Shown piece after piece: positions 31,227 through 46,932 of a DNA stretch of 55,582 nucleotides. The first letter of the stretch is position 1, and every line of letters begins with the position of its first letter. Source of the stretch: Nesterenkonia salmonea (GTDB lineage: Bacteria > Actinomycetota > Actinomycetes > Actinomycetales > Micrococcaceae). Under the pieces are notes generated by a model. It saw only the letters and a program-made list of their open reading frames with translations. It ran no database searches and was not told where the DNA came from. The stretch lies in NCBI RefSeq assembly GCF_005771525.1, contig NZ_VAVZ01000006.1, forward strand, positions 55,984-111,565, written 5' to 3'. The position numbers and the translations under genes were made by a program.

Positions 31227-32468
31227 ATGCGCATAGTTCTCGGAGTCTCCGCAGGCATCGCCGCCTATAAGGCGGTCTACCTCGCCCGGCTCCTCAAGGA
31301 GGACGGCCACCAGGTCGATGTCATCCCCACGGAGAGCTCCTTGGAGTTCGTCGGAAACGCCACCTGGGAAGCCGTGAGTGGGCGCCCTGTCAGCACAAGC
31401 GTCTTCGAAGGTGTTGAAGAGGTTCGGCATGTCCGCTTAGGGCAAGAAGCAGACCTCATTGTGGTGGCTCCTGCCACGGCAGATTTCCTGGCTCGGGTGC
31501 GCGCGGGTATGGCCAGTGACCTCCTGACAACGACCCTCCTGGCGACCGAGGCGCCCATACTTCTGGTCCCTGCCATGCACACAGAAATGTGGCGCAATGC
31601 AGCTACCCAAGACAATGTGGCAGTCCTCCGAGACCGCGGTATTGATGTCATGGAACCAGCCGTGGGCAGGCTGACCGGTGCAGACTCAGGTCCGGGCCGG
31701 ATGCCTGAGCCGGACCAGATCAGAGCCGAGGTAGATCTTCTGCTGCACCAAGAGGGTGGACCTTTAGCGGGTAGAAGAGTGCTGATCACCGCTGGCGGCA
31801 CTCGTGAACCGCTCGACCCCGTCAGGTACTTGGGCAATCGATCCTCCGGAAAGCAGGGACTCGCATTGGCGGACGCCGCCCGGTCAGCGGGAGCGCAGGT
31901 CACACTCATTGCCGGATCCATGGAGCAGCAGCCTGGTCCCGAACTCGCCTGCATTGAGGTGGTCTCAGTTGGGACTACGGAGCAGATGCATGCAGCCGTG
32001 ATGTCGAGAGCCGAGCAAGCCGATGCCCTCATCATGTCTGCGGCCGTGGCTGATTTTCGGCCTGCCGACTACGCTCATACCAAGATCAAGAAGTCCGACA
32101 ACGGTGCCAGCCCAATCATCACGCTTGAACGAAACCCCGATATCCTCGCCGAAACAGTTGCAAGGCGCAACCACCGGGGCACCGGGCCAAAAGTCATCGT
32201 CGGCTTCGCGGCTGAGACCGGTGACGAAAAGAGCGACCCGTTGGAACTGGCCCAGCTGAAACTCCAACGCAAGGGCTGTGAGCTGTTGGTGCTTAATCGA
32301 GTTGGGGAGAACCTGGTCTTCGGTCTGGACAGTACGGAAATCCACATTTTAGCCTCGGACGCCGCGCAGCAGCAGCTTCAAGGTTTTGAACCTGACCACG
32401 TGATCGGCTCCAAGCGTGAAGCCGCGGCATTGGTGATCCAACGTCTTCATCAACTGCTAGCGACCTAA
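31227..32468 (+). CDS. coaBC: Bifunctional phosphopantothenoylcysteine decarboxylase / synthetase
   Basis: Carries out two successive steps of coenzyme A synthesis. The 413-residue protein has the FMN-binding CoaC half (LGVSAGIAAYKAVYLARLL, VVAPATADFLARVRAGMASDLL, PAMHTEMW) and the CoaB half starting near residue 185 with VLITAGGTREPLDPVRYLGNRSSGKQG. It is the last gene of the long forward block. The next forward gene in related genomes is metK, but here 13 kb of other genes intervene. A small ACCAG/CTGGT hairpin at 32468-32479 sits between this gene and the convergent thiolase gene. Confidence 0.96.
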   Translation: MRIVLGVSAGIAAYKAVYLARLLKEDGHQVDVIPTESSLEFVGNATWEAVSGRPVSTSVFEGVEEVRHVRLGQEADLIVVAPATADFLARVRAGMASDLLTTTLLATEAPILLVPAMHTEMWRNAATQDNVAVLRDRGIDVMEPAVGRLTGADSGPGRMPEPDQIRAEVDLLLHQEGGPLAGRRVLITAGGTREPLDPVRYLGNRSSGKQGLALADAARSAGAQVTLIAGSMEQQPGPELACIEVVSVGTTEQMHAAVMSRAEQADALIMSAAVADFRPADYAHTKIKKSDNGASPIITLERNPDILAETVARRNHRGTGPKVIVGFAAETGDEKSDPLELAQLKLQRKGCELLVLNRVGENLVFGLDSTEIHILASDAAQQQLQGFEPDHVIGSKREAAALVIQRLHQLLAT

Positions 32469-32482
32469 CCAGTGCTGGTCGA

Positions 32483-33706
32483 TCAGACCCGTTCGAGCAG
32501 CATCGCTGCTCCTTGACCCATGCCTATGCACATAGTCGCCAACCCACGTGCTGCGCCCTCGTCCTCCATCCGGCGTAGGAGGGTGACGACGATCCTGCAC
32601 CCCGAGGAGCCCAGGGGATGCCCCAGGGCGATGGCACCTCCGTCAGCGTTGACAACCCCCTGATCCAAACCTAGACGCCGAATGCACGCAAGAGACTGTG
32701 AAGCAAACGCCTCGTTGATTTCGACGGCCCCAATGTCATCGAGGTCCCAGCCAGTGCGTTCCAGTACTTTCTGAGTCGCGGGCACGGGACCGAGCCCCAT
32801 GACTTCTGGTGCGATACCGGCGTTGGTTCTGCCCACCACACGCGCTCGGGCAGCCAGGCCGTATTTTTCGACCGCACGTTCTGAAGCCACCAGGACTGCC
32901 GAAGCGCCGTCGTTGAGACTTGACGCATTGCCGGCGGTTACCACTGATCCGCCTGGGACTACTGTTCGGAGCTGAGACAGCGCCCCAAGAGAACTGTCCG
33001 GGCGGGGTCCCTGGTCAGCCGCCACGACGCTGACTTGGCCCTTCCGATTCGATACCTCAACAGGTGTGATCTCGCGCCCCAACCTACCGGCGTTGTGGGC
33101 GGCCACAGCACGCTGGTGGGACTGAAGGGCAAAGACATCAGCGTCATTCCTGCTAATTCTGTCGATCCGGGCAACCTCCTCAGCTGTTTCCGGCATCGAA
33201 AACATACGCTTCTCGTGCTTGAGATGTTCTGGATTGACGAACCGTGCGCCGATGGATGTATCGGCAACTTCGCCCGGACGAGGAAAAGCAGTTGTCGGCT
33301 TGGCCATGACCCACGGGGCGCGAGACATCGACTCCACACCGCCAGCCACCACCAAGTCGGCATCTCCGGCTGCGATCATCTGCGAGGCGATGGCAATCGC
33401 TGACATTCCCGAGGCGCAGAGACGATTGACGGTGACCCCTGGGACCGTCTCGGGAAAGCCAGCGAGCAACCAAGACATACGGGCGACATTACGATTCTCT
33501 TCTCCGGCACCGTTCGCGTTGCCGAGGATTACTTCATCCACGTCTGTAGGGTCGATGCCGGCATCCTCTATAGTCTGCTTGACGACCAAGGCTGCAAGAT
33601 CATCGGGGCGTACAGGCGACAGCGAACCTGCATAGCGGCCAACGGGTGTTCGGGTGCCCCCGACTAAGAATGCCGCCGGTGAGATGAAGGGAGTTGCGGC
33701 TACCAT
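32483..33706 (-). CDS. Acetyl-CoA acyltransferase (thiolase), beta-ketoadipyl-CoA thiolase-like
   Basis: Cleaves a 3-oxoacyl-CoA with free CoA. The 407-residue protein has the thiolase catalytic residues Cys97 (NRLCASGMSA), His363 (GGAIALGHPLGSSG) and Cys393 (CIGMGQGA). The segment GNANGAGEENRNVARMSWLLAGFP resembles the PcaF/PaaJ class, which acts on 3-oxoadipyl-CoA, so a dicarboxylyl substrate is possible. The ATG follows a GGAGG. It is the last gene of the reverse operon with CoA-transferase, thioesterase and acyl-CoA dehydrogenase, 53 bases after the latter. No pca genes lie nearby. Substrate is inferred, fold is secure. Confidence 0.9.
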   Translation of the reverse strand: MVAATPFISPAAFLVGGTRTPVGRYAGSLSPVRPDDLAALVVKQTIEDAGIDPTDVDEVILGNANGAGEENRNVARMSWLLAGFPETVPGVTVNRLCASGMSAIAIASQMIAAGDADLVVAGGVESMSRAPWVMAKPTTAFPRPGEVADTSIGARFVNPEHLKHEKRMFSMPETAEEVARIDRISRNDADVFALQSHQRAVAAHNAGRLGREITPVEVSNRKGQVSVVAADQGPRPDSSLGALSQLRTVVPGGSVVTAGNASSLNDGASAVLVASERAVEKYGLAARARVVGRTNAGIAPEVMGLGPVPATQKVLERTGWDLDDIGAVEINEAFASQSLACIRRLGLDQGVVNADGGAIALGHPLGSSGCRIVVTLLRRMEDEGAARGLATMCIGMGQGAAMLLERV

Positions 33707-33759
33707 GATGCGACCTCCAGGTTTTTGGGAAAATTAGAGGAGACGATTACTACCTGCGT

Positions 33760-34962
33760 TCAGCGGCGACTCCGGGCGAAAGCCGAGATGCCTGTGATGT
33801 CCCGCCCGACGATTAGGGCCTGCATCGAGTCTGTTCCCTCGTAGGTGGAGACCACTTCCATGTCGGTCAAGTGGCGGGAGATGTGGTTTTCCAGCAGCAG
33901 CCCGTTACCAGCCAGGATGTCCCGCGCCTCACGGCACATGGCCAACGCCTTTCGCGATGTAGTCATCTTCACCAGGGAAGCCATGCCATCAGTCAGTCGA
34001 TCTGCTTCAGCGAGCTCCGACATGCGTGTGCACATCAGCTGCATAGCGGTGAGGTCAGAGAGCATCGTGGCCAATTTCTCCTGGATCAGCTGGTAGCTCC
34101 CTATAGGCGCACCGAACTGCTCGCGCCTGAGAGCGTAGTCGGCGGCGATCTCCATTGCCGCCATGCCGTGGCCAACTGCCTCCCAGGACGCCCCACCTCG
34201 GGTTGCTCGCAGTACCCGGTTGACGCCCTTGAAGCTGTGGCAGTCAGCCAGTCGGTTCTCCGACGGTATCTTGAGGTTGTCGATGACAATATCGGCCTGG
34301 TTGATGGAACGCTTGCCTATCTTTCCAGTGATGACCTCGGGGCGGTAACCCTGTGGATAGGTCCCGTCGGGCTGACGTTCCAAAACGAAGGCTTTCACCT
34401 GCGAGTCGGCCTCGTCGCGCGCAAAGATCACAACGACGTCGGCGGCATGTCCGTTGCCGATCCACCGCTTATGGCCGTTGAGAATCCATGACTCACCCAC
34501 TTGGCGGGCACTGGTCTCTAGGGAGACGGAGTCGGAACCATGGTCAGGCTCCGTAAGCGCAAACGCTCCGGTGCGCTTCAATGTGGCCATGCTGGGCAGC
34601 CACCGTTTCCGCTGCTCCTCGTTTCCCAGCATGTAGATGCTTCCCATGCAGAGATTGGAATGGACTCCGAAGAAGGTGTTGACGGAGCCGTCGATCCGTC
34701 CCATTTCCCTGGCCACGACACCGGCTGCTCGTCGGGAGAGTCCTGGGCATCCATAGTCTGGAATGAAGCCGCCGACGATGCCTATGTCGGCCAAGGGGCT
34801 CAGCACCGGCTCCGGAAACTCTCCTCGCTCCCAGTATTTGTTGATGACAGGCAGCACATGCTGGATACCGAATTCACGGACCTCGTCGCGCAGGTGAAGT
34901 TCCTCGTCAGTAAGACCTTCATCGAGCAGAAAATAGTCAGGGTGTTCGATGACCGATGTCAT
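33760..34962 (-). CDS. Acyl-CoA dehydrogenase of the glutaryl-CoA dehydrogenase / ACOX4 clade
   Basis: FAD enzyme introducing the alpha-beta double bond in an acyl-CoA. The 400-residue protein has TEPDHGSDSVSLET, LNGHKRWIGNGHAADVVVIFARD, RREQFGAPIGSYQLIQEKLA, and the catalytic Glu375 in STYEGTDSMQALIVGRDITGI. This C-terminus and the KRWIGN segment resemble glutaryl-CoA dehydrogenase and plant ACOX4. The Arg-Ser that binds the glutarate carboxylate is replaced by Asn95-Thr96 (DGSVNTFFGVHSN), so true glutaryl-CoA decarboxylation is unlikely. The ATG overlaps the upstream thioesterase stop by ATGA. An oxidase rather than ETF-linked activity cannot be excluded. Confidence 0.9.
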   Translation of the reverse strand: MTSVIEHPDYFLLDEGLTDEELHLRDEVREFGIQHVLPVINKYWERGEFPEPVLSPLADIGIVGGFIPDYGCPGLSRRAAGVVAREMGRIDGSVNTFFGVHSNLCMGSIYMLGNEEQRKRWLPSMATLKRTGAFALTEPDHGSDSVSLETSARQVGESWILNGHKRWIGNGHAADVVVIFARDEADSQVKAFVLERQPDGTYPQGYRPEVITGKIGKRSINQADIVIDNLKIPSENRLADCHSFKGVNRVLRATRGGASWEAVGHGMAAMEIAADYALRREQFGAPIGSYQLIQEKLATMLSDLTAMQLMCTRMSELAEADRLTDGMASLVKMTTSRKALAMCREARDILAGNGLLLENHISRHLTDMEVVSTYEGTDSMQALIVGRDITGISAFARSRR

Positions 34963-35402
34963 AGTGAACCTTTCGCATCGTGAGAGAGGGCTTTGTGAAG
35001 GCCGGCTCGAAGGGACATGGTTGGAGGGGAGGGCCGACCGGTGGTGGGGTCGACGAGAACCATCGCCGCCTCTCCGGCCACGCAGAGAGCACCGTGTTGA
35101 ATCAGCTCATGGCGAATTGTGAATGACGTGTTCCCGATGCGAGTGACCCAGACGTAGGCGCTCAGCGTTGGGATGTAGTGCACTGGCTGGTGGAAAGCCA
35201 CCGACATGCTGCGCACCACCCTGACGAGGTCACTGTGATCCGCAGAGCCTGCGCTCCAACTCCGGGTGGCCTCAATGCGGGCTTCTTCGAGCAGCGTGAT
35301 GACCCGGGCGTTGTTGACGTGGCCGTTGAGATCCTGATCGGACCAGCGGACCTGCAGCGTTGTCTGGAATGCCACCGCTGGCGGGCTGTAGGCGGAGGTC
35401 AT
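34959..35402 (-). CDS. Acyl-CoA thioesterase, 4HBT hotdog family
   Basis: Hydrolyses acyl-CoA thioesters; the 147-residue protein from the ATG at 35402 has the 4-hydroxybenzoyl-CoA thioesterase-type motif RWSDQDLNGHVNNARVITLLEEAR near the N-terminus and a hotdog-fold beta pattern after it. The longer open frame to 35447 overlaps the upstream CoA-transferase and is rejected. It overlaps both neighbours by ATGA (35399-35402 and 34959-34962), so it is translationally coupled inside the operon. It may rescue CoA from dead-end thioesters. Confidence 0.88.
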   Translation of the reverse strand: MTSAYSPPAVAFQTTLQVRWSDQDLNGHVNNARVITLLEEARIEATRSWSAGSADHSDLVRVVRSMSVAFHQPVHYIPTLSAYVWVTRIGNTSFTIRHELIQHGALCVAGEAAMVLVDPTTGRPSPPTMSLRAGLHKALSHDAKGSL

Positions 35403-36628
35403 ACTGATGTTTCCTGTGCGGAGTCCCTGCTTCGGCTGAGGAGCCACTCTCGCACCTGCTCGCTGTCGGCTCCCAACCGCGGTGGAGCTTTTCCGTAGTG
35501 GGCCGGTGTCCTGCTGAACTGCACTGGATGTTTGATGGTGGGTACCTCCTCACTCTGCTGACCGGCGGTGACCACTGGGTTCAGCCCCAGGCGCTCCGCA
35601 AACTGGACTCCTTCCCCAATGTTGAGAATTGGGGCACATGGAATCCCCTCCTCCTGAAGAACTTCGAACCAGTGTTCCGCGGAATTCTGACTGAGGGCCT
35701 CAACCAGCAGCTCTCTCAGGGTGCTGCGATTTTGGTTTCGTTCCTCCATCGTCGCGAACCGTGGGTCCTCAGCGGCCCAGCCGAATCCCAGGTTGGAGAC
35801 GAGGCGGGCAAATTGCCGGTCATTGCCCGCGCAGATGATAAGATCCTTCTCGGCGGTGGGAAAAGGCCCATAGGGGTAGAGACTGGGATGGTCATTGCCC
35901 AGCCGCTGCGGGACGTTGCCACAGGCAGCGTAGCCCGCCGTCTGGTTGACGAGGCCCGAGAGCGCGGAGGAGAGCAGGTCCAGTTCCACATGCTGCCCCT
36001 GCCCCGAGACGCCCCGTTCGTGCAGCGCGGCGAGAATGCCGGTCGCTGCGTGAAGGCCCGTAATGACGTCGAACATTGCTACCCCAGCCCGTTGAGGATC
36101 CCGCTCAGGGGAGCCGGTCACCGACATGAGTCCAGAGAGACCCTGGACCAGGAGGTCGTAACCAGGCATGTTCTTCCCACCACCGCTGCCGAAGCCGGTG
36201 ATACTGGTATGAATCAGTTCGGGATGGGCTTCGGTCGTCTGCGAGGCATCCAGTCCGTAGCGGAGGAGCCCCCCGGGTTTGAAGTTCTCGATCAGGACAT
36301 CAGCCTGATCCACGATTTCGTGTGCGGTTTCGAGATCCGCAGGGTCACGAAGATCGAGCACAATTGAGTGCTTATTGCGATTCACCGCTAAGTAATAGGT
36401 GCTGACACCTTCACGTGCGGGCGGTATCCAGGTGCGCGAATCGTCCCCCGAGGGAGCTTCGACCTTGATAACGGTCGCACCCATGTCTGCAAGCAGCATT
36501 GTGCAGTATGGGCCGGCCAGAATGCGGGTGAAGTCGGCAACGACGACGCCGCTCAGGGGCCCCGGCGAGATGTCCTTCCGGTCGTGAGCAGAAGTTGGAA
36601 TAGTCACGTGAGGGGGTGCATCCGGCAT
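35399..36628 (-). CDS. Class III CoA-transferase (CaiB/BaiF; SUGCT-like)
   Basis: Moves CoA between organic acids, here probably activating the imported acid. The 409-residue protein starts at the ATG 36626-36628 after GAAAGAGG; upstream extension is spurious. It shows VADFTRILAGPYCTMLLADMGATVIKVEAPSGDDSRTW, VLIENFKPGGLLRYGL, and the catalytic Asp158 in NMPGYDLLVQGLSGLMSVTG. It resembles mitochondrial SUGCT, which uses succinyl-CoA and dicarboxylic acids. First gene of a four-gene reverse operon, divergent from a LysR gene across a dyad-rich gap. Confidence 0.9.
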   Translation of the reverse strand: MPDAPPHVTIPTSAHDRKDISPGPLSGVVVADFTRILAGPYCTMLLADMGATVIKVEAPSGDDSRTWIPPAREGVSTYYLAVNRNKHSIVLDLRDPADLETAHEIVDQADVLIENFKPGGLLRYGLDASQTTEAHPELIHTSITGFGSGGGKNMPGYDLLVQGLSGLMSVTGSPERDPQRAGVAMFDVITGLHAATGILAALHERGVSGQGQHVELDLLSSALSGLVNQTAGYAACGNVPQRLGNDHPSLYPYGPFPTAEKDLIICAGNDRQFARLVSNLGFGWAAEDPRFATMEERNQNRSTLRELLVEALSQNSAEHWFEVLQEEGIPCAPILNIGEGVQFAERLGLNPVVTAGQQSEEVPTIKHPVQFSRTPAHYGKAPPRLGADSEQVREWLLSRSRDSAQETSV

Positions 36629-36659
36629 GATTCCTCTTTCAATCAGTGTGCTGTAAACC

Positions 36660-36685
36660 ACAGAACCATTACTATTGAGTTCTGT
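36660..36685. promoter_or_regulatory. Candidate LysR operator (7-bp dyad, 12-base spacer)
   Basis: ACAGAAC (36660-36666) and GTTCTGT (36679-36685) form a perfect inverted repeat in the gap between the CoA-transferase and LysR genes. LysR regulators usually recognise such interrupted dyads upstream of divergent targets. Confidence 0.5.
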
Positions 36686-36700
36686 CCAATACAAAATGAT

Positions 36701-36721
36701 GGGTACTCTGATACCCGAGTA
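36701..36721. promoter_or_regulatory. Second candidate LysR site with interleaved dyads
   Basis: GGGTA-N6-TACCC (36701-36716) and TACTC-N8-GAGTA (36704-36721) are two interleaved inverted repeats about 40 bases from the first dyad (centre to centre) and just before the LysR gene. Paired recognition and activation sites are common for this family. Confidence 0.4.
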
Positions 36722-36738
36722 GAAATAGTGGGAGTGGC

Positions 36739-37653
36739 ATGGAAGTCAATCAAGCGCGGGCGTTTCTTGCCGTCGCGGAAGAACTGCACTTTGGTCGTGC
36801 CGCCGCGCGTCTTCGAATGGCTCAGCCACCTCTGAGTCGCCTGATCCGCCAGCTTGAGCGCACCATGGGGGCTACTCTGTTCGAGCGCAGCACACGCCAT
36901 GTTGCTCTCACCTCCGCGGGACAGGCTCTGCTGGAAGACGCGCAGACTCTCGTGTCTGTTTCGGAGAGTGCGAAGCAGTCGGTTCGCAGCGCCATGGTGG
37001 GGGAGACCGGCAAAGTGCGCCTGGGTTTCGCCGGGGCTTCCATCAACCGCCAGGTCGGACAACTGGCTCGCAATATCCGGGCAGCGCGCCCGGGCATCAG
37101 TCTCGAACTCTATAGTTCCCAGTTCTCTCATCTCGGTCTCCAACGGGTAGTTGACGAATCCCTCGACTTGGTCATCGGGCGCTGGGATTTTCTGCCGGCT
37201 GGAATCGACTCGGCGGTCATCGGGTTGGAACAGCTCTTGGTGGCACTTCCCGAATCACACCCGCTCGCTGGCAGAGAACAGTTGAGCATGGCGGAACTTG
37301 CAGAAGACCCCTGGATCGTTCTGCCGGCCGGTGCTGGCGCAGCGCTCCAGAACCGGCTCAACTCCCTAGCCATGGCCGCCGGTTTTGTGCCACGTGTCGT
37401 CCAGACCGCGCCCGACTCTTGGACGCTGGTGGTGCTGGTGGGTGCTGGTTTGGGCTGTTCTCTTACGCTGGACTCCGTTCGGGACAATATTGCTTCCGAC
37501 GGCGTCTCCTTCGTGCCACTGGCCAGAGGCGGCAAACCTCTGGAGGTGCGCATGATATGGCGAGGCGCTGATGCCAGTTCAGCTCTGCGTGCTGTGGTCG
37601 AGCTGGCGGAACGGATGTTTCCTGATCCCCGCTCAGAGAGTCAGCTCTCATAG
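36739..37653 (+). CDS. LysR-family transcriptional regulator
   Basis: Likely controls the divergent CoA-transferase operon and perhaps the TRAP operon. The 304-residue protein has the N-terminal winged helix-turn-helix (QARAFLAVAEELHFGRAAARLRMAQPPLSRLIRQLERTMG), typical of the BenM/CbnR-like subgroup that often senses aromatic or organic acid intermediates, then an inducer-binding domain (about 90-295). The ATG follows GGGAGTGG. Its 3' end overlaps the convergent hydroxyacyl-CoA dehydrogenase gene by 13 bases with no terminator between. The effector is unknown. Confidence 0.92.
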   Translation: MEVNQARAFLAVAEELHFGRAAARLRMAQPPLSRLIRQLERTMGATLFERSTRHVALTSAGQALLEDAQTLVSVSESAKQSVRSAMVGETGKVRLGFAGASINRQVGQLARNIRAARPGISLELYSSQFSHLGLQRVVDESLDLVIGRWDFLPAGIDSAVIGLEQLLVALPESHPLAGREQLSMAELAEDPWIVLPAGAGAALQNRLNSLAMAAGFVPRVVQTAPDSWTLVVLVGAGLGCSLTLDSVRDNIASDGVSFVPLARGGKPLEVRMIWRGADASSALRAVVELAERMFPDPRSESQLS

Positions 37654-38528
37654 GTGTACCAACCGCGGCCGCTTTTCCTGCCGTATCGCCCCGCCTCGTA
37701 GAGCTCTCTGATGGCGGGATCTGGGAGTGACTCGGGGTCTCCGGTCTGCTCATACTCAGCCATACGAATCAGGTAGGCCACGTCGATTCCAACCAGATCC
37801 ATCAGTTCGAAGGGCCCCATGGGATGCCTCAGTGCGGTTCGCGCAGCCGTGTCGATGTCCTCGAAACCAGCTACGCCCTGGTTGTAGAGGCTGAGAGCTT
37901 CCTTGCGTATGGCATTGAGCAGCCGGTTGGCAACGAAACCGGGCACCTCTTTGCGGAGTCGAACCGGATCCTTACCCAAAGCTTCAGCGAGAGCCGCCGT
38001 TTTCTCCAGTGTTTCTTCGGAGGTCCCGGTATGGGGGACAACCTCCACACACTTCATGATGAGTGCGGGGTTGAAGAAATGCATATTGCACACTCGGTCA
38101 GGTCTGGCTGTCGCCTCTGCGATGCGGGAGGAGACAATATTGGATGAGTTGGTGGAGAGGATGGCATGCACCGGAGCTAGTTCGTCAAGTTCGGCGAAAA
38201 GCTGCTTCTTCACCGGAAGATCCTCCACCGCCGCTTCGATGACGAAATCGGTGCGCGATACGGCGCTCGCCCGGTCGGTGCTGAGGTGAAGTCTCTGCCA
38301 CGCAGCATCGACAGTCTGCTGACTCCGACGGCCCTTTTCCACGTCTCGATCCATCAGTTTGGCCAGCGAACTCTGTGCCTGTCCCAACTGCTCTTCCTTG
38401 ATGTCGATCAGATCAGTCTGAAAACCGCAGAGTGCTGCTTGCATGGCAATCTGGGCACCCATCGTGCCAGCTCCGATGACGGTTATTCGGGCGATGTCGG
38501 GCTCCCATGAAGTTGGGACTTCAGGCAT
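37641..38528 (-). CDS. 3-Hydroxyacyl-CoA dehydrogenase
   Basis: Oxidises 3-hydroxyacyl-CoA to 3-oxoacyl-CoA with NAD. The 295-residue protein, from an ATG behind AAGGAGA, has the Rossmann motif VIGAGTMGAQIA (GxGxxG at 19-24), STNSSN, the catalytic His150/Glu162 pair in NMHFFNPALIMKCVEVV, and the C-terminal domain DTAARTALRHPMGPFELMDLVGIDV ending GRKSGRGWYTY. It is a single-function PaaH/Hbd-type enzyme. It overlaps the upstream hydratase by 8 bases and ends the TRAP operon. It would supply substrate for the thiolase encoded 4 kb away. Confidence 0.93.
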   Translation of the reverse strand: MPEVPTSWEPDIARITVIGAGTMGAQIAMQAALCGFQTDLIDIKEEQLGQAQSSLAKLMDRDVEKGRRSQQTVDAAWQRLHLSTDRASAVSRTDFVIEAAVEDLPVKKQLFAELDELAPVHAILSTNSSNIVSSRIAEATARPDRVCNMHFFNPALIMKCVEVVPHTGTSEETLEKTAALAEALGKDPVRLRKEVPGFVANRLLNAIRKEALSLYNQGVAGFEDIDTAARTALRHPMGPFELMDLVGIDVAYLIRMAEYEQTGDPESLPDPAIRELYEAGRYGRKSGRGWYTYES

Positions 38529-39363
38529 GCGGATTCTCCTTGTTCTGTGTTGGGGTCGCGGATGCTGTGCGGAAGTCGGGGCGTCTCTTCTCGAGGAAGG
38601 CCTGTGTTCCTTCTGCCTTCTCATCTGTGCTGTAGAGCACCGCTTGCGCAAGCCGCTCAAGCAGCATTCCGGTGCTGGCATCGACGGTGAAACCATGCTG
38701 GACCACGGTTTTTGCCAGCTGCAGAGCCAGCGGGCCACGGGCAAGGATATTCTCAGCGCACCGCCGTGCAGCATCTGTGAGATCTGCTGGTTCCACCACC
38801 TCTGAGACGAGGCCCCAGGACAATGCTTCCTCAGCGCTGACCCGCCGCCCGGTAAGGATGACTTCAGTTGCCCGGCCAGTGCCGACGATCTTGGCTAGGC
38901 GCTGCGTGCCCCCGGCGGCAGGCAGCACCCCCAAGCCGGTTTCCGGGAGCGCGAACTGTGCATTGGTCGAAGCGATACGAATATCGCAGCTCAGTGCCAG
39001 TTCGTGTCCACCGCCAAAGGCATAGCCGTTGACTGCAGCAATGGTGGGTTTGGGGAACTTCTCAATTCTTTCGTAGAGGCGCTGCATGGTGGCAGTCAGG
39101 CCATCTGCGGGAGTCCGGCGGGCGAGCTCATTGATATCGGCCCCGGCGACGAAGGCCTTTTCTCCGGCGCCGGTGAAGATCAGGAGCTGGGCATCGTCAT
39201 CGTCATACAGTTCATCCAAAGATGCGGACACCTCAGCCAATACTTGGCTGTTCATGGCGTTGCGGGAGTCAGGGCGGTTGATAGTGACCCAGGCAATACC
39301 TTGGGTGTTCTCCACCTTGATCAACTCAGGGGAGCTCCTCGAGGGGCTGGGTGACGTATTCAT
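38521..39363 (-). CDS. Enoyl-CoA hydratase
   Basis: Adds water across the double bond of enoyl-CoA. The 280-residue crotonase-fold protein keeps both catalytic glutamates: Glu121 in AFGGGHELALSCD and Glu141 in FALPETGLGVLPAAGGTQRL, plus the oxyanion-hole segment EKAFVAGADINELA. The ATG overlaps the TRAP permease stop by ATGA, and the 3' end overlaps the dehydrogenase start. A longer open frame to 39570 lies inside the permease gene and is rejected. Confidence 0.93.
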   Translation of the reverse strand: MNTSPSPSRSSPELIKVENTQGIAWVTINRPDSRNAMNSQVLAEVSASLDELYDDDDAQLLIFTGAGEKAFVAGADINELARRTPADGLTATMQRLYERIEKFPKPTIAAVNGYAFGGGHELALSCDIRIASTNAQFALPETGLGVLPAAGGTQRLAKIVGTGRATEVILTGRRVSAEEALSWGLVSEVVEPADLTDAARRCAENILARGPLALQLAKTVVQHGFTVDASTGMLLERLAQAVLYSTDEKAEGTQAFLEKRRPDFRTASATPTQNKENPHA

Positions 39364-41423
39364 ACTTTGTCCTCCTGCAGTGTTTTGGGGGTTGACAGTG
39401 AGGCCGCGCCAGCAGAACGCTTGGCCAGGTATGTGAGGGCGATGGCCGCAGCAATGAGGGCCAGTCCGGTGATCGCCGCCCAAAGGGTCGGAAGAAACAG
39501 CAGGACGCCGCCGGCACCCAACAGCGGTCGGGCGATCCAGGCAGGTTGATGCTCCACCAACGGCAGCCATCCGTTGATGGCGGTCGCAATGGCTATGACG
39601 GCAATGATGCTCAGAGCAAAGGCAGTCAGGACCTCAGTCAGTGTGCCCTGGGCAACCAGCGCGGGGTTGAGCGCGAACCCGAAAGGAACGATGTACTTCG
39701 CAGCCCCCAGCTTCATAGCGGTCAAGCACGTGCCCATAGCCGAGGCTTTGGAAATGCTGGCCGCGGCGAAGGCCGCCAGACCCACGGGAGGCGTGATGTA
39801 TGACACGGATGCCCAGTAGATGACGAAGAGATGTGCAGCGATGGGATTTACGCCGAGCGCTGTCACCGCTGGAACCATCACGATGGCTAGGAAGACGTAG
39901 GCGGCCGAGATTGTCAGACCCATGCCGAGAATAAAGCAGACCACTGCTCCGGCAATGAGGATCAGGATGAGGTTGTCACCGACCAGCGCAACCAGGTCGC
40001 GAGACAGGGACAGGGCGACCCCGGTCGCTGAAAGACCTCCCAGAATCAGCCCTACGCCGGCGATCAGCCCGATAATCTGTCCAAGAGTCTTGCCGGCATC
40101 CAACAGCATCGCTGTGAATTCCTTGGGCCCAAAGCGCAGATTGGGCTTCAGAAAGGCGATGACCATAAGTATCGCGACGATCCAGTAGGGCACCTGGGCC
40201 TCAGATCCTGTGCTGAAAAGCATGGCAGTAAGCACAATCAGTGAGCCGATGTAGGGCCACCCGGAGATGAGGGCTGCGCTGACCCGCGGTAGCAGATGCT
40301 TCGACGTCCCTGCAAGATTCTGCCGAGCGGCATAGCCATCGATCTGAACAAAGATGCAGAGAAAGTACAGAACTGCCGGGATTGTGGCGGCGATCAGCAC
40401 TTCCGTGTAGGAGACGCCGACGAATGAAACCATCAGGAAGGCCACAGTGCCCATGATGGGTGGCGTGATGGATCCCCCGGAAGCGGCCGTCGCTTCCACT
40501 GCACCCGCCATGCGAGGGCTGAAGCCGGACTTCTTCATTGCTGGAATAGTCATGGGGCCCGTGGTGAGCACATTGGACACCGCAGACCCGCTCATCATTC
40601 CCAGAGTCGCGGAGCTCGCCACCGAAACCTTGGCAGAACCTCCGCGGTACCGGCCGAAGATGGCCATAGAGAGTCGGTGGAAAAATTCTGCCCCGCCGGT
40701 GTGCTGCAGCACAATTCCGAACAGCAGAAAGCCGATCAGGATGCTGCCTACGGTTTCCATAGGAAGTCCGAGAATGCTTTCTGGACCCATCGCGTGGACC
40801 TGAGCGACGGTGATGAGGTCATATGGGATTCCCTGCAAGATGGCAAAGGGGATTCCTTCGGCAGTCAGGGGATAGAGGGAGAGAGCTAAGGCTAGTACCG
40901 CCACGATCCAGCTTGAGCTTCTGCGCAGAGCTTCCAGCACAACCAACCACAGCACGAAGCTGAGAATCGTGGCCGGCACTGGAGCGATGAATTCCCAGCC
41001 GTACTCCTGAATCTCTACGCCGTTGACGGCGAAGTACAGGCAGGTGAGGATCGTCAGGACAACTATGGCGGCGTCATACCAGGGCACGCCGGAGGTTCCA
41101 GGCGGGTCGTTGTCCTCATCTCTCTTCCGCAACGGCCACACGATGAAGACAATCGGAAGGAAGCAGGCCAGGAGAAGATACAGATAGGCGTTGGTCAGAA
41201 TCGCCAGCCCACCAAGATTCCAAAAGAAGACTTGATTCATGGAGAGTAGAATCCCGACAACGGTGAGTACGATCACCACTGCGCTCCAGAAGCGAGTCAG
41301 CCGATGATTCCGCGTGGCAGTTGTCGCGATGAGCTGCTGCATGTCGTCCTCATTGGGTGATTCCAAGGAGGGCTCATCTCCGATGCCCCGTTGAGAGTGA
41401 TCCTCACGTGTAGCTGTTCTCAT
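39360..41423 (-). CDS. TRAP transporter fused permease (DctQM, 4TM/12TM type)
   Basis: Sodium-coupled secondary transporter membrane subunit of a TAXI-type TRAP system. The 687-residue protein has a charged N-terminus (about 45 residues), roughly sixteen or more membrane segments, a small DctQ-like front part, and a large DctM part with GGAEFFHRLSMAIFGRYRGGSAKVSVASSATLG divided over two helices, the conserved SGSAVSNVLTTGPMTIPAM, and ATAASGGSITPPIMG repeated later as SYITPPVGLAAFAAASIS. ATGA overlaps join it to the binding protein upstream and the hydratase downstream. Substrate unknown; organic acid is likely. Confidence 0.92.
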   Translation of the reverse strand: MRTATREDHSQRGIGDEPSLESPNEDDMQQLIATTATRNHRLTRFWSAVVIVLTVVGILLSMNQVFFWNLGGLAILTNAYLYLLLACFLPIVFIVWPLRKRDEDNDPPGTSGVPWYDAAIVVLTILTCLYFAVNGVEIQEYGWEFIAPVPATILSFVLWLVVLEALRRSSSWIVAVLALALSLYPLTAEGIPFAILQGIPYDLITVAQVHAMGPESILGLPMETVGSILIGFLLFGIVLQHTGGAEFFHRLSMAIFGRYRGGSAKVSVASSATLGMMSGSAVSNVLTTGPMTIPAMKKSGFSPRMAGAVEATAASGGSITPPIMGTVAFLMVSFVGVSYTEVLIAATIPAVLYFLCIFVQIDGYAARQNLAGTSKHLLPRVSAALISGWPYIGSLIVLTAMLFSTGSEAQVPYWIVAILMVIAFLKPNLRFGPKEFTAMLLDAGKTLGQIIGLIAGVGLILGGLSATGVALSLSRDLVALVGDNLILILIAGAVVCFILGMGLTISAAYVFLAIVMVPAVTALGVNPIAAHLFVIYWASVSYITPPVGLAAFAAASISKASAMGTCLTAMKLGAAKYIVPFGFALNPALVAQGTLTEVLTAFALSIIAVIAIATAINGWLPLVEHQPAWIARPLLGAGGVLLFLPTLWAAITGLALIAAAIALTYLAKRSAGAASLSTPKTLQEDKV

Positions 41424-42634
41424 GAGGAAGCTCCATTCTCGTCTGGGTCATCACTTGGTTCATCGCCGGGATCCGGGACATCCTCGATGGTGGGAAGCTC
41501 AGGCAGATTTTCGGCCTTCCAGTCCACCCAGCGGAGGGAGAGCTCCTCGACTTCTGAGTTGCTTTCGAGAAAGGGCGGCCAAGCGTCAGCCATCAGCTCC
41601 TCACGCTCCAGTAGAGCCTGTTGGCGGGCTTCGAGGTCTGGCGTCCAGCGACCCACGGCCTCTAAGAAATCCACTGAGCCGTCATGAAAAGGAACCACCA
41701 TGGGGTCCAGCAGGATCGCGTCCCGGGCGAAGTTAGGCGCATCTGGAGTGACGTCCTTGAACTGGTCGTAGTAGTGGTCGATGTAATCAATGAGCGTCGA
41801 AACCTCTTCGACCGGGCGGTCGGCCAGTGTGGTGAGAGGGATGGTGTACTGCATATTGACGGCGGACTCTCCCGGTTCCATGCCTGCAGCCTCGGTGAAT
41901 TCGCCGGGCCGGACCATTGGCGCGAGCTCCTCCCACGTGTCGTAGCGGGAAGGATCGTCACCGCCGAGGTCCAGCCAGCGGATCGGATGTTGAGAAGCCA
42001 ACTCCTCGATATTCGAACCAACCGTATTGTGGTAGAGAGCGTCAAGCTGTCCGGTGCGCAGCGCCTCAACCTGTTCGGCGTAGGAGATATCGACCTGAAC
42101 CACGTCATCGCCTGTCAGCCCGTCATAGTTGAGGATGGCTTCGAGCTTTCGGTTCATCGACGTGCTGGCCGTCAGGCGGGGGTAGCGCCGGCCCTCCAAA
42201 TCGCCGACAGTTTCAATTCCGCTGTCTTCGCGGACAAGGACGCCATAGTTCCCCGGAGGTGTCCACACCTGACGGAGTCTCTGTGGGCCCCACATTTCAG
42301 AGGCAAACTCATCATTGCCTTCGAAGGCGTAGTAATACTCGTCGCCTGCTCGCGCGTAGTCCGCAGTGCCATTGATCAGGGGGGCCAGACGGCCGATTCC
42401 CGTATCGGACGTCATTAGCCTGACTGGCACGCCAACTTCACTGGTGAGAGTGTTCGCAATTGCCGCCAGGTCGTTGTACGTCCCCGTGCCTATCCCGTAG
42501 GTGGACCAAACCAACTGACGGGGCAGAGCTGAATTCACGTTCGTTGACGCAGGTGAGCAGCCGCTGAGATATCCGGCCGCGGTCAAGCTTGCCGTACCTG
42601 CCAGAAAACTGCGGCGGCTGATGTGTTTCGTCAA
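41420..42634 (-). CDS. TAXI-family TRAP solute-binding lipoprotein
   Basis: Extracytoplasmic substrate receptor of the TRAP system. The 404-residue protein starts with TTG after a GGGAGAG, has a Tat signal (SRRSFLAGTASLTAAGYL) followed by an LSGC lipobox with Cys26, and a TAXI fold: LVWSTYGIGTGTYNDLAAIAN and QVEALRTGQLDALYHN. The C-terminus is an acidic Asp/Pro/Glu tail (about 30 residues). It heads a four-gene ATGA-linked operon with permease, hydratase and dehydrogenase. Export in folded form by Tat suggests a cofactor or fast folding; the ligand cannot be deduced. Confidence 0.92.
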   Translation of the reverse strand: MTKHISRRSFLAGTASLTAAGYLSGCSPASTNVNSALPRQLVWSTYGIGTGTYNDLAAIANTLTSEVGVPVRLMTSDTGIGRLAPLINGTADYARAGDEYYYAFEGNDEFASEMWGPQRLRQVWTPPGNYGVLVREDSGIETVGDLEGRRYPRLTASTSMNRKLEAILNYDGLTGDDVVQVDISYAEQVEALRTGQLDALYHNTVGSNIEELASQHPIRWLDLGGDDPSRYDTWEELAPMVRPGEFTEAAGMEPGESAVNMQYTIPLTTLADRPVEEVSTLIDYIDHYYDQFKDVTPDAPNFARDAILLDPMVVPFHDGSVDFLEAVGRWTPDLEARQQALLEREELMADAWPPFLESNSEVEELSLRWVDWKAENLPELPTIEDVPDPGDEPSDDPDENGASS

Positions 42635-42897
42635 GATGCTCTCCCGTGACGTTGCCGGTTGTCTGTCATGTGAGCCCAGTCACTCAGGGCGTTCCACCGC
42701 AATTTATACCTGTTGTTGCATGACGCACACCACTAAATCGGGATAGTAATACTCATGCGGTATGAAAACATGAGGTGTCCAGTAATAGCGCCTTGTGGTT
42801 ATTGCGATGCCCACAAGACGGTGATTACGTGTTGTCCGTCACGCAATGATGGAGGTTGGCTCCCAGGTCCGGCCCAGCCCTGCACGAAGGAGCAGCA
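42635..42897. other. Divergent intergenic regulatory region
   Basis: The largest gap of the window (263 bases), between the reverse TRAP operon and the forward ligase-MFS operon. It is AT-richer than its surroundings at 42700-42800 and holds one clear dyad. No credible small gene or tRNA was seen. Promoters for both directions must lie here, but I could not fix them. Confidence 0.6.
42752..42774. promoter_or_regulatory. Candidate operator dyad between TRAP and ligase operons
   Basis: CTCATG (42752-42757) and CATGAG (42769-42774) are a perfect 6-bp inverted repeat with an 11-base AT-rich spacer, in the middle of the divergent gap. It differs from the dyads next to the LysR gene, so a different regulator may bind. 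Role is inferred. Confidence 0.4.
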
Positions 42898-44466
42898 ATG
42901 TTCGATCTGTCCACGATGGTGGCCCAGTCTGCCCGCAGATACCCTGAGAAGATAGCTCTGATAGAAGGAGCCGAGCGGTGGACGTTCGCCGAACTGGACC
43001 ACGCGATATCTGAAGTGGCACACGGCCTTGCGGAGCAGGGTTTCCATCCTGGAGAGGCAGTTGGTCTTCAACTGAAGAACACGGCTCCGTTCGTCATCAC
43101 CTACTATGCCGTGCTGCGTGCCGGGATGATCGTCGTTCCCTTCAACCCCTTGGCCGTAGAACGGGAAGTGGAGCATATCCTCTCTGCTGCAGGCTGCCGT
43201 GGTGCAGTTGTCCCTGCGTCCACGGCGGGGACCGTGATGGACGCAGCCACCAAGATCGAGGACTTCCTGCTGATCGTCGATACGGATGACGAGGGCGCAC
43301 AGGACACCATCACAGCCCAGGTCAGCTCCTCAGGAGCTCGAGACTTCCTCGCATTCAGCGAATTGCTCAGACGAGCTGACCAGCGGGCGCCTCAGCCAGC
43401 CGTCGTGAGCCGCGCTGATGACGATGCAGTGGTGATATTCACATCAGGCACGACCGGCATGCCGAAGGGCGCTGCTCTGAGCCACTTCAACCTCTGGATG
43501 AGCTGCACTGCCCTCACCACACGCAGCGACCCGTCATCGGAAGAGGTTGCGCTCGCCTGTCTTCCGCTGTTCCACGTCTTCGGAATGTCCGGGATCCTGA
43601 ACGTCTCGATGGCTTGGGGCATGACCCTGGTACTCGCTCAGAAAGCTGACCCTGAGACAGTTCTGGGGCTGATCGAAGAACACGGCGTCACACGCTTCTC
43701 TGCCGTTCCCACCATGCTCAGCGACTTCATACAGGCAGGTGCTCAGGGTCGGGATCTGAGTTCGGTTCGCCGCGTCACTTCGGGGGGATCCACGCTGCGT
43801 CCGGGTGTCATCTCGCAGTTCGAGGAGATGTTCCCGGAGGCCGCGCTCCTGGAGGGATACGGCGCCTCGGAGACGACGTCCTCAGTCTGCGTCAACCAGA
43901 GCCGCAGCGAGCGCAGGCCTGGCTCTGTGGGAACGCCCTCTTGGGGCGTCGAGATGCGCATCGCAGATGAGGATGGTTCGGTTCTCCCCCCCCCCGGTGC
44001 GGGCCACGTGGGGGAGCTGCATGTCAGGAGTCCGACGTTGTTCAACGGCTATGTGGGTGAACCGGATGAGACTGAAGCCACTTTCGATGGCGAGTGGTTC
44101 CGCACCGGGGATATGGCTCGTATCGACCAGGACGGCTATGTATATATCGTCGACCGCATCAAAGATGTGATCATCCGCGCTGGCTACAACGTTTACCCGT
44201 CCGAGGTTGAGCAGGTGCTTCAGAACCATCCAGGAGTTGCGCAAGCGGTCGTGGTGGGGCTGCCCGACGACCGTGTGGGCCAAGAGATCGCCGCGCTGGT
44301 GGTACCCAGTCCGGAGGAACAGGTGACGGAGGAGCTCATCAAGGCCTACGCCAGGGATCAGCTGTCAGCCTATAAACATCCACGCATTGTGAAGATCTGC
44401 CAGGAACTGCCTCACTCATCTACGGGGAAAGTGCTCCGTCGGCACGTTGCATCCGCGTTCTCGTGA
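42898..44466 (+). CDS. Acyl-CoA ligase (AMP-forming, ANL family)
   Basis: Activates a carboxylic acid through an acyl-adenylate. From the ATG at 42898, 7 bases after GAAGGAG, it is 522 residues. It has the P-loop IFTSGTTGMPKGAALSH, GYGASETTSSVCVNQ, the hinge region WFRTGDMARIDQDGYVYIVDRIKDVIIRAGYNVYPSEVE, and the catalytic Lys in STGKVLRR. Medium- or short-chain acids are likely by resemblance; the chain length is not fixed. A run of nine C lies at 43986-43994 inside the gene, in frame. It overlaps the MFS gene by GTGA. Confidence 0.92.
   Translation: MFDLSTMVAQSARRYPEKIALIEGAERWTFAELDHAISEVAHGLAEQGFHPGEAVGLQLKNTAPFVITYYAVLRAGMIVVPFNPLAVEREVEHILSAAGCRGAVVPASTAGTVMDAATKIEDFLLIVDTDDEGAQDTITAQVSSSGARDFLAFSELLRRADQRAPQPAVVSRADDDAVVIFTSGTTGMPKGAALSHFNLWMSCTALTTRSDPSSEEVALACLPLFHVFGMSGILNVSMAWGMTLVLAQKADPETVLGLIEEHGVTRFSAVPTMLSDFIQAGAQGRDLSSVRRVTSGGSTLRPGVISQFEEMFPEAALLEGYGASETTSSVCVNQSRSERRPGSVGTPSWGVEMRIADEDGSVLPPPGAGHVGELHVRSPTLFNGYVGEPDETEATFDGEWFRTGDMARIDQDGYVYIVDRIKDVIIRAGYNVYPSEVEQVLQNHPGVAQAVVVGLPDDRVGQEIAALVVPSPEEQVTEELIKAYARDQLSAYKHPRIVKICQELPHSSTGKVLRRHVASAFS
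43986..43994 (+). repeat. C9 homopolymer inside the acyl-CoA ligase gene
   Basis: Nine consecutive C encode part of the LPPPGAG stretch. The reading frame is intact with nine. Slippage by one base would truncate the C-terminal domain with the catalytic Lys. Confidence 0.9.
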
Positions 44467-45698
44467 GCCGATCCTCCGGGAGGAGCAGGCCCTCCACCAC
44501 TAGGTGGCTCTGGCTGCTCGTGGCCGTGGCAGTGCTCAGCCAGGCAGCGATTCACCTGATCCGTCCCACCACCACCTATAAACTAATCGACCTCGGTGCC
44601 GATGGCATGACCGTCGGCCTAGTCACCGCGCTATATTCCCTCCTGCCAGTCCTTTTCGCCCTTGCCACCGCTTCTCGTGCTCAGCGCGCGTCGTCTCTTC
44701 GGCCTCTTCTGCTGCTTGGGACAGCATTGATGAGTCTTGGGGCGGCAGGAACGGCTGCGGCTCCACATGTGGCCGGGATCGCGGCAGCCAGCGCGCTGCT
44801 GGGAGTCGGTCAGATCGTCGTGGTCATCGCGGGTCAAGCAGCCATTGCTCGATTCGCAGGCAATGATCAATTGGATTTCGCCTTCGGATGGTTCACCGCA
44901 GGGTTTGCGGCCGGGCAGATGGTTGGCCCTCTGGTGGCCGGTGCCATCCTAGACCCAGCTGCCGGTGCCGCTGGTGCCACCCTGGCGATTGATCGCACCC
45001 TCTGGTGGGGGACGAGTCTCACCGGCATCATCGCGGTTCTCCTGCTTATATCCGGTCGCACCTTTCACAGTCACCGCCGGGCCGATGACTCCGTCCTACC
45101 GTCATCGCAGGTACCTCATCAGGGTGGGATCTCACATGCGGTGCAGATCATCCGCACCCCGCGAGTGAAGTCACATTTCTTCGCATCCATCGCACTGATC
45201 GGCATGATGGACCTGTTGGCCGCGTTCCTTCCTCTGGTCGGCGACGAAGCAGGTATCTCTCCACTGTGGGTCGGAGTGCTCTTGGCAGCCCGCGCCGCCG
45301 CCTCGATGCTCTCCCGCGTGCTGCTTCCGCTGCTGCGGCGATGGTTCTCACGGCATGTGCTGGTGGTGACTGCGCTGTGGGGTGCTGGCAGCATGCTGGG
45401 TGCATCCACTTCGGTGACCCAGTACTTTCCCTGGGCACTACTGACGATCGCCCTGGGTGGGTTCTTCCTCGGGTTGGGGCAGCCACTGACCATGTCTGCC
45501 ATAGCGGAAGCTGTGCCGCTGCATTGCCGGTCCTCAGCTTTGGCGCTGAGCCTCGTGGGGAACCGCGTCGGTCAAGTCTTGGTCCCGATGGCCGCTGGTG
45601 GTCTGACCGGCGTGGTCGGCGCTTCGGGAGGCGTGTGGCTGGGCTGCCTGCTTCTTCTGGGATCAGGGGTGGAGAAGACTGTCTTCTGGAAGAAATAG
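44463..45698 (+). CDS. Major facilitator superfamily transporter
   Basis: A 411-residue integral membrane protein with about twelve hydrophobic helices and MFS character (DLGADGMTVGLVTALYSLLPVLFALATASRAQR in the loop 2-3 region). The GTG start overlaps the ligase stop (GTGA), so it is coupled to acid activation and may import or export the acid or a product. The family is clear, substrate unknown. It is the last gene of the accessory island; 40 bases separate it from metK, and its C-terminus ends with a short Lys tail. Confidence 0.85.
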   Translation: MSRSSGRSRPSTTRWLWLLVAVAVLSQAAIHLIRPTTTYKLIDLGADGMTVGLVTALYSLLPVLFALATASRAQRASSLRPLLLLGTALMSLGAAGTAAAPHVAGIAAASALLGVGQIVVVIAGQAAIARFAGNDQLDFAFGWFTAGFAAGQMVGPLVAGAILDPAAGAAGATLAIDRTLWWGTSLTGIIAVLLLISGRTFHSHRRADDSVLPSSQVPHQGGISHAVQIIRTPRVKSHFFASIALIGMMDLLAAFLPLVGDEAGISPLWVGVLLAARAAASMLSRVLLPLLRRWFSRHVLVVTALWGAGSMLGASTSVTQYFPWALLTIALGGFFLGLGQPLTMSAIAEAVPLHCRSSALALSLVGNRVGQVLVPMAAGGLTGVVGASGGVWLGCLLLLGSGVEKTVFWKK

Positions 45699-45726
45699 AC
45701 CTCTCCGCAGTTGGTCGACCGCGCGG

Positions 45727-45732
45727 TAGGAT
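45727..45732 (+). promoter_or_regulatory. Putative -10 hexamer of metK (leaderless)
   Basis: TAGGAT (TANNNT) ends 6 bases before the metK GTG at 45739, with no room for a Shine-Dalgarno. It gives metK its own promoter just past the island. Confidence 0.5.
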
Positions 45733-45738
45733 AACCCG

Positions 45739-46932
45739 GTGACCTCAACCAACCCCCTTCGCCTGTTCTCCTCCGAGTCGGTGACTATTGGCCATCCAGA
45801 CAAGATCTGTGACCAGGTCTCTGACGCCATACTTGATGCGCTGCTAGCTGTTGACCCCGACTCACGGGTCGCCGTGGAGGCGTTGACAACCACCGGTCTG
45901 ATGCATGTGGCAGGTGAGGTCACCACAAACGGTTATGTTGAAATTCCGCAGATCGTCCGATCGACCCTCCTGGGCATCGGATACGACTCCTCAGCCAATG
46001 GCTTCGACGGGGCCCGCTGCGGAGTGTCCATATCTATCGGTCAGCAGTCACCGGACATCGCCGGGGGAGTGTTCAACTCCCTAGAAGCGCGATCAGGAGC
46101 GCAGGACCCACGCGAGGCTCAAGGTGCCGGTGACCAGGGAATCATGTTCGGGTATGCCACCAATGAGACCGAAACCTTCATGCCCACTCCGATCGCTCTG
46201 GCTCACCGGCTCTCGGCGCAGCTGACCAAAGTGCGCCAGGACGGTACCCTCGCCTACCTAAGACCCGACGGCAAGACGCAGGTCACCATCGGCTACGACG
46301 GCCCGAATCCCGTCTCACTCGATGCAGTAGTGGTCTCGACTCAGCACACCCAGGAAACATCCCAGCAGCAGCTGCACGCGGACATCTCAGAATCCGTCAT
46401 CGCCCCGGTGGTCGCTGAGGCCGGATTGGACCTCGGGGCAATGGAAGAAATCATCAACCCTTCAGGCCCGTTCGTGGTCGGGGGCCCCGTCGGTGATGCT
46501 GGTCTGACGGGCAGGAAGATCATTGTCGACACCTACGGAGGATTCGCCCGCCACGGCGGGGGCGCCTTCTCCGGCAAAGACCCATCCAAAGTGGACCGCT
46601 CTGCCGCCTACGCCATGCGCTGGGTGGCAAAGAACGTCGTCGCGGCGGGCCTTGCCGACCGCGCCGAGATCCAAATCGCTTACGCGATAGGCCGGGCACA
46701 TCCGGTGGGGATCTACGTCGAGACCTTCGGCACGGAGCACGTCGACCCCGTCGCGATTTCCGCAGCCATTCGTGAAGTGTTCGATCTGCGCCCCCTGGGC
46801 ATTATCGAGGATCTGGATCTGAAAAGGCCCATCTATGCGGAGACTGCCAAGAACGGTCACTTCGGACGCCCAGAATTCCCCTGGGAAGAGCTCAATCGTG
46901 TCGAGGCTCTCCGTTCGCAGTTCAACGCGTGA
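45739..46932 (+). CDS. metK: S-adenosylmethionine synthetase
   Basis: Makes S-adenosylmethionine from methionine and ATP. The 397-residue protein has [37 protein letters not shown] (ATP loop), and [19 protein letters not shown]. The start GTG is preceded by a -10 hexamer and no ribosome binding site. No SAM riboswitch is possible in the 40-base gap upstream. In related genomes it follows coaBC; here it follows the island. Confidence 0.97.

Follow-up and report, generated by a model that had tools for sequence, protein, structure and literature searches.

An accessory catabolic block at the coaBC–metK junction of Nesterenkonia salmonea, probably assembled at the site and exchanged among relatives through its flanking genes

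The genome of Nesterenkonia salmonea harbors, between the essential genes coaBC and metK, eleven genes predicted to take up, activate and beta-oxidize an organic acid. With a probability of roughly three in four, these constitute an accessory, presence/absence-variable catabolic block that was assembled at this junction and has been exchanged by way of its flanks. The sister genome and most of the relatives examined have an empty junction, and two other members of the genus carry the block or a remnant of it at the same place. In a distant member, the block lies on an IS-bearing contig, flanked by fragments of an additional metK and coaBC.

Gene content and organization of the block

The window analyzed is the whole stretch of 55,582 nucleotides from contig NZ_VAVZ01000006.1. 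Open reading frames and Pfam matches confirmed that eleven open genes fill positions 32483–45698, between coaBC (31227–32468, plus strand; Pfam Flavoprotein and DFP) and metK (45739–46932, plus strand; S-AdoMet synthetase domains), with gaps of 14 bp on the coaBC side and 40 bp on the metK side. The flanks checked comprised OMP decarboxylase, an H2TH protein (presumably mihF-like), gmk and coaBC on the left and metK, priA and leuS on the right. Each of the eleven had a Pfam match to a family concerned with acyl-CoA catabolism, with transport or with regulation, in agreement with the uptake, activation and beta-oxidation content predicted by an earlier sequence-only reading. That reading had described three transcription units; four were found.

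The first unit (minus strand) encodes a thiolase (32483–33706), an acyl-CoA dehydrogenase (ACAD) of the glutaryl-CoA dehydrogenase/ACX4 group by profile match and residue alignment (33760–34962), a 4HBT hot-dog acyl-CoA thioesterase (34959–35447; PF13279) and a class III (CaiB/BaiF) CoA-transferase (35399–36694; PF02515, 376 bits). The second (plus strand) consists of a LysR-type regulator (36739–37653; PF00126/PF03466) divergent from the CoA-transferase unit. The third (minus strand) encodes a 3-hydroxyacyl-CoA dehydrogenase (HCDH; 37641–38774, PF02737/PF00725, with homology starting near 38501), an enoyl-CoA hydratase (ECH; 38521–39570, PF00378, with homology starting near 39327), a TRAP transporter fused permease (39360–41423) and a TAXI solute-binding protein (41420–42634). 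The permease (TIGR02123, 573.7 bits; cut-off 320.65) and the binding protein (TIGR02122, 188.6 bits; cut-off 84.35) both scored above curated cut-offs and were assigned to the TAXI-type TRAP transporters. The fourth unit (plus strand) carries an AMP-dependent acyl-CoA ligase (42856–44466; PF00501/PF13193) and an MFS transporter (44463–45698; PF07690). A promoter and terminator scan performed no better than it did on shuffled sequences.

The coaBC–metK junction in the genus and family

The junction was compared in 30 genomes of the genus, including this one (G000); 29 contain both coaBC and metK, and G028 contains neither. The spacer measures 54–276 bp in 24 of the 29, and 13,270 bp in G000, about 12.2 kb in G020 and 1,842 bp in G025. 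The sister genome G007, whose MetK is 96% identical to that of G000, has an empty site with a 71-bp spacer. The two genes lie apart in 2/29 genomes, G015 (62% complete) and G016; about 500 kb separates them in G016 (L062, L063), which breaks an otherwise conserved order. Outside the genus, coaBC was matched in 58 family genomes, and in the 46 of these with a place for metK also among the matches listed, the two genes were neighbors without exception (46/46), one pair overlapping and the others being 21–233 bp apart. Most relatives thus do not have these genes here, as an ancestral arrangement would require: the block is present in 2/29 genomes (G000 and G020) and a remnant in 1/29 (G025). A generic integration hot spot with varied cargo was also considered and found no support, as each of the three filled sites in the genus contains this cluster or what is left of it, and none of the remaining 24 spacers exceeds 276 bp.

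The spacer before metK (45699–45738, plus strand) contains a TAGGAT box at 45727–45732. In the sequences listed, this box is present just 5′ of metK in 26 of the 27 genomes in which metK lies downstream of coaBC, G014 having TAAGAT. As the box is kept before metK, the insertions sit upstream of it. We take it to be a −10 element, and its location a few bases 5′ of the metK start suggests a near-leaderless metK transcript. In the literature searched, no paper linking coaBC and metK to a genomic island was found; among the papers listed for adipate/TRAP/CoA-transferase, glutaryl-CoA dehydrogenase residues, islands and flanking recombination, and Micrococcaceae catabolism, there was none on this module.

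Same-site relatives, composition and age

The G020 block (L015) matches that of G000 in gene order and strands for ten of the eleven genes, which are 55–90% identical. The missing one is the MFS gene, for which L015 gave no match and which occurs at this site in G000 only. The nearest MFS homologue found (69–71%) belongs to a related, partly broken cluster with a truncated CoA-transferase elsewhere in G016; hence, the G000 block looks assembled in steps. The remnant in G025 comprises ACAD (87%) and the thioesterase (55%) only.

The sequence-only reading had also proposed that base and codon composition be compared with the flanks, and here no difference emerged. GC content was 0.581–0.631 for the eleven island genes vs 0.586–0.637 for 23 flanking genes, and the codon scores of the two sets overlapped. 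Protein identity between G000 and G020 was 56–90% for the block vs 67–85% for seven core genes, and fourfold sites were near background (30–50%) between these two genomes, as they were between most members of the genus. Owing to this native composition and core-like divergence, a recent foreign arrival of the block in G000 was rejected. The best fit is an old insertion that was lost in some lineages and was also exchanged between relatives.

A rearranged copy in a distant member of the genus

The search for the island elsewhere, likewise proposed in that reading, was productive: the block was found on contig C18 of G005, and related modules were found at other loci in the family and on plasmids. 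G005 has an intact, adjacent coaBC–metK pair on its 431-kb contig C2. On the 27.4-kb, IS-bearing contig C18 (L020/L021), the block is located between a metK fragment (about codons 7–225) and pieces of coaBC. C18 matches G020 at 91.4% over 13.2 kb; the matching stretch starts in the 3′ end of coaBC, spans the entire block and ends some 680 bp inside metK, and it is far closer to G020 than is G005's own coaBC–metK pair. Similarly, the metK fragment on C18 shares 89% identity with metK of G020 vs 78% with G005's own metK. An ORF with IS481-type transposase domains reaches and enters the metK fragment, and the coaBC fragment is split by an insertion of ∼1.5 kb carrying an ISL3-type transposase, with nine identical bases on each side. 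A second CoA-transferase cluster on C18 matches contig C34 of G020 at 92.6% over 5.5 kb. By name only, the contig also encodes an aminoglycoside-adenylyltransferase-like protein and a hexapeptide-repeat protein. In the core tree, G005 (39% of columns filled) groups with G011, far from G020. The simplest reading of the C18 copy is a lateral transfer from a G020-like lineage in which pieces of the essential flanks would have been carried along. C18 may be a contaminant, being a 27-kb contig from a draft assembly; the rearranged structure would then exist in another organism.

Recombination in the flanking genes

Comparison of coaBC between G000 and its sister G007 showed that the first 176 codons are 89% identical at the amino acid level and 58% at fourfold sites, whereas the remainder is 64% and 30% identical, the latter close to background. 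The tree of the CoaC half joins G000 with G007 (support 98, starred). The CoaB half rejects their sisterhood in an AU test (log-likelihood lower by 48.5, p-AU 0.0007), a test for which the pair was chosen only after the drop in identity had been noticed; in this half, G000 is placed beside G020 with weak support (65). It appears from these alignments and trees that coaBC from about codons 150–177 onward lies in a recombination tract, in either G000 or G007: either G000 gained the CoaB half along with the block, or G007 gained the CoaB half along with an empty spacer. The coaBC sequences of G020 and C18 show a comparable abrupt shift, with 53–84% identity in windows before approximately position 1656 of L015 and 85–98% after it. 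In the ACAD tree, G025 groups with G020 and C18 (99/96, starred), against the order of the core tree, which joins G020 with the group of G000 (100, starred). The view that the block was acquired or assembled at one site is backed by these tree conflicts and the mosaic coaBC, together with the flank fragments of the G005 copy and the MFS gene confined to G000.

The main alternative for the history of the site is a block that was inserted once, long ago, in the subclade ancestor and then inherited vertically, with several independent losses (in G007, G027, G014, G003/G006 and G010), with no exchange at the site. It would explain why G000 and G020 share the site and the gene order while diverging as core genes do, and it would also suit the native composition and, as decay, the G025 remnant; it is nevertheless improbable in view of the conflict between the ACAD and core trees, the mosaic coaBC and the G005 copy, which looks laterally transferred. 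Far less probable still is a classical genomic island driven by an integrase or transposon, for although related modules are tied to plasmids and IS elements and transposases occur at the G005 copy, the window contains no tRNA or Rfam RNA, the eleven block genes include no integrase or transposase, and the repeat search returned only short, imperfect, chance-like pairs, none convincingly bracketing the block. Hence, the block is not called a classical integrative element; taken with the native composition, these negative results indicate an insertion that is old or derived from relatives, probably through recombination in the flanking genes.

As a sequence of events, the block would have been assembled at the site in the subclade ancestor or in a donor lineage, and later exchanges and losses would have come about mainly through homologous recombination within coaBC and metK. 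Such recombination would explain why integrase and repeats are missing, why coaBC is mosaic and why fragments of the flanks travelled with the block. We tentatively propose that coaBC and metK may serve as recombination arms for a natural uptake-plus-beta-oxidation cassette, which ordinary homologous recombination would swap in and out across the genus; the scars would be chimaeric CoaBC and, where the cassette lands elsewhere, dead copies of the essential genes that record the donor.

Predicted pathway and substrate

The enzyme families of the block make CoA-transferase-primed beta-oxidation of an organic acid likely. The TAXI-TRAP transporter would import the acid, and the class III CoA-transferase would charge it from an acyl-CoA donor such as succinyl-CoA; alternatively, the ligase could do so using ATP. 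ACAD, hydratase, hydroxyacyl dehydrogenase and thiolase would together perform one turn of beta-oxidation, while the LysR protein may sense the substrate and the thioesterase may free stalled CoA. From an adipate-like acid, the products would be acetyl-CoA and succinyl-CoA, and the succinyl-CoA could prime the transferase again.

The thiolase scored best with the 3-oxoadipyl-CoA thiolase models PRK09050 (522.6 bits; cut-off 605) and pcaF TIGR02430 (517.3 bits; cut-off 597), reaching neither cut-off; among the 25 models shown, it passed only the broad TIGR01930 (443.3 bits; cut-off 240.55), and the next other type scored 384.1. The CoA-transferase matches PF02515 over its full length and aligns at the GYD motif, the Asp of which is the catalytic residue in class III CoA-transferases, and it was placed in this class. 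Its best NCBIfam model is succinate-glutarate CoA-transferase, at 321 bits against a cut-off of 750. Thus, both enzymes fall below every substrate-specific cut-off. An adipate-like C6 dicarboxylate is the best single guess for the substrate, and a tentative one.

Another acid, such as a longer or branched fatty acid or a ring-cleavage acid derived from a cyclic ketone or an aromatic compound, is a serious possibility short of even odds. The extra AMP ligase in the block would suit it, and a related module on a Kocuria plasmid lies near genes for a Baeyer-Villiger-like monooxygenase (mainly an N-terminal match), an alpha/beta hydrolase and SDRs, a set that could equally feed adipate. This monooxygenase set is no more than a hint: a transposase and a TetR gene separate it from the Kocuria module, and nothing ties it to the window.

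Glutarate, which would be converted through glutaryl-CoA and crotonyl-CoA to two acetyl-CoA, is an unlikely substrate. It is favored by the nearest model of the CoA-transferase and by the ACAD, which falls with glutaryl-CoA dehydrogenase (GCDH) and plant ACX4 and keeps the Tyr-Glu pair that includes the catalytic Glu. However, the ACAD has Gly at the position of Glu87, a residue with a role in human GCDH, and the thiolase is nearest to PcaF rather than to acetoacetyl-CoA thiolase. Furthermore, Asn occupies the position of human GCDH Arg94 in 14/14 compared proteins, and the ACAD was not classed as a GCDH. In the part of the source consulted, which deals with the role of Arg94 and Tyr369, Arg94 meets the distal carboxylate of glutaryl-CoA (PMC3169403). 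The replacement of Arg94 by Asn makes glutarate unlikely and does not thereby indicate adipate. As a separate point, glutamate was weakly disfavored as the TAXI ligand, since the residues mapped to Q93 and E125 of VcGluP, as given in an excerpt of PMC11574862, are not kept, in an alignment that is weak (E 4e-7) and with a numbering offset that we set ourselves.

Related modules on plasmids and comparison with known systems

A close CoA-transferase was detected in 28 of the 197 genomes searched, four in the genus and 24 in the family outside it. For 15 of these 24, coaBC or metK was also among the matches listed, and the CoA-transferase was far off, on the same contig in seven and on another contig in eight. 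The CoA-transferase tree (42 rows) was built by a quick method, with warnings and several long branches, and only the starred groups in it are relied on here. It places the genus in several separate groups: G000 with G020 and C18 (100, starred), G029 with G001 (99, starred), G013 and G014 apart, and G022 with G004 beside a Kocuria flava plasmid (100, starred).

Modules of this type travel, as is evident from plasmids of Kocuria flava, Brevibacterium and Citricoccus. Plasmid 1 of Kocuria flava HO-9041 (NZ_CP013255.1; L035 1–37878) is mobilizable, has type IV secretion genes and resembles the block in carrying TAXI, TRAP, ECH, HCDH, CoA-transferase, thioesterase, ACAD, thiolase and LysR genes, with 63–67% protein identity for CoA-transferase (63%), TRAP (65%) and ACAD. 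It differs in having an extra ACAD, ECH and HCDH, an MFS gene inside the operon and transposases nearby, the module adjoining an IS256-type and another transposase gene. Brevibacterium pAP13 and the Citricoccus plasmid unnamed2 share with the block LysR, MFS, CoA-transferase (59%), ACAD, ECH, HCDH and thioesterase genes, whereas no TRAP or thiolase is annotated in the stretches shown, for which the PLSDB annotation is incomplete. The same acyl-CoA dehydrogenase, WP_023164840.1, is common to both (L089 12845–14074 and L090 13238–14467), suggesting recent plasmid spread of a related module across two families. On two Rhodococcus plasmids (L091 9971–12006 and L092 9980–12051), a homologous CoA-transferase is followed by a citryl-CoA lyase gene, in a different pathway context. 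Taken together, the analysis points to an acid-degradation module that travels on plasmids in Micrococcales and includes a TAXI transporter. It follows the passage of a metabolic module from one species to another; in the host, no mobile element belonging to the module was seen, and scars in the flanks allow the donor and the direction to be traced.

The layout of the block resembles that reported in the portion of PMC12543098 consulted, where dicarboxylate phenotypes are described for beta-proteobacterial LysR regulators encoded next to hydratase and dehydrogenase genes, although the hosts are unrelated. Succinate-hydroxymethylglutarate CoA-transferase (PDB 9br6/9br7) belongs to the same class III family as the block enzyme (237 bits); the block enzyme does not reach the cut-off of the related NCBIfam model. 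In the adipate (Dca) system of Acinetobacter baylyi, DcaIJ is a two-subunit CoA-transferase and the transporters differ from TAXI-TRAP, whereas the block encodes a single-chain class III CoA-transferase, with TAXI-TRAP as its carrier. According to the section of PMC12337976 consulted, the dca genes (dcaAKIJP) serve adipate uptake and its initial conversion to 2,3-didehydroadipyl-CoA; the TRAP transporter, CoA-transferase and dehydrogenase of the block would match these steps, followed by a hydratase, a dehydrogenase and a thiolase nearest to the 3-oxoadipyl-CoA type. Accessory catabolic islands are of a known kind; in the present block, the record of transfer is unusually readable.
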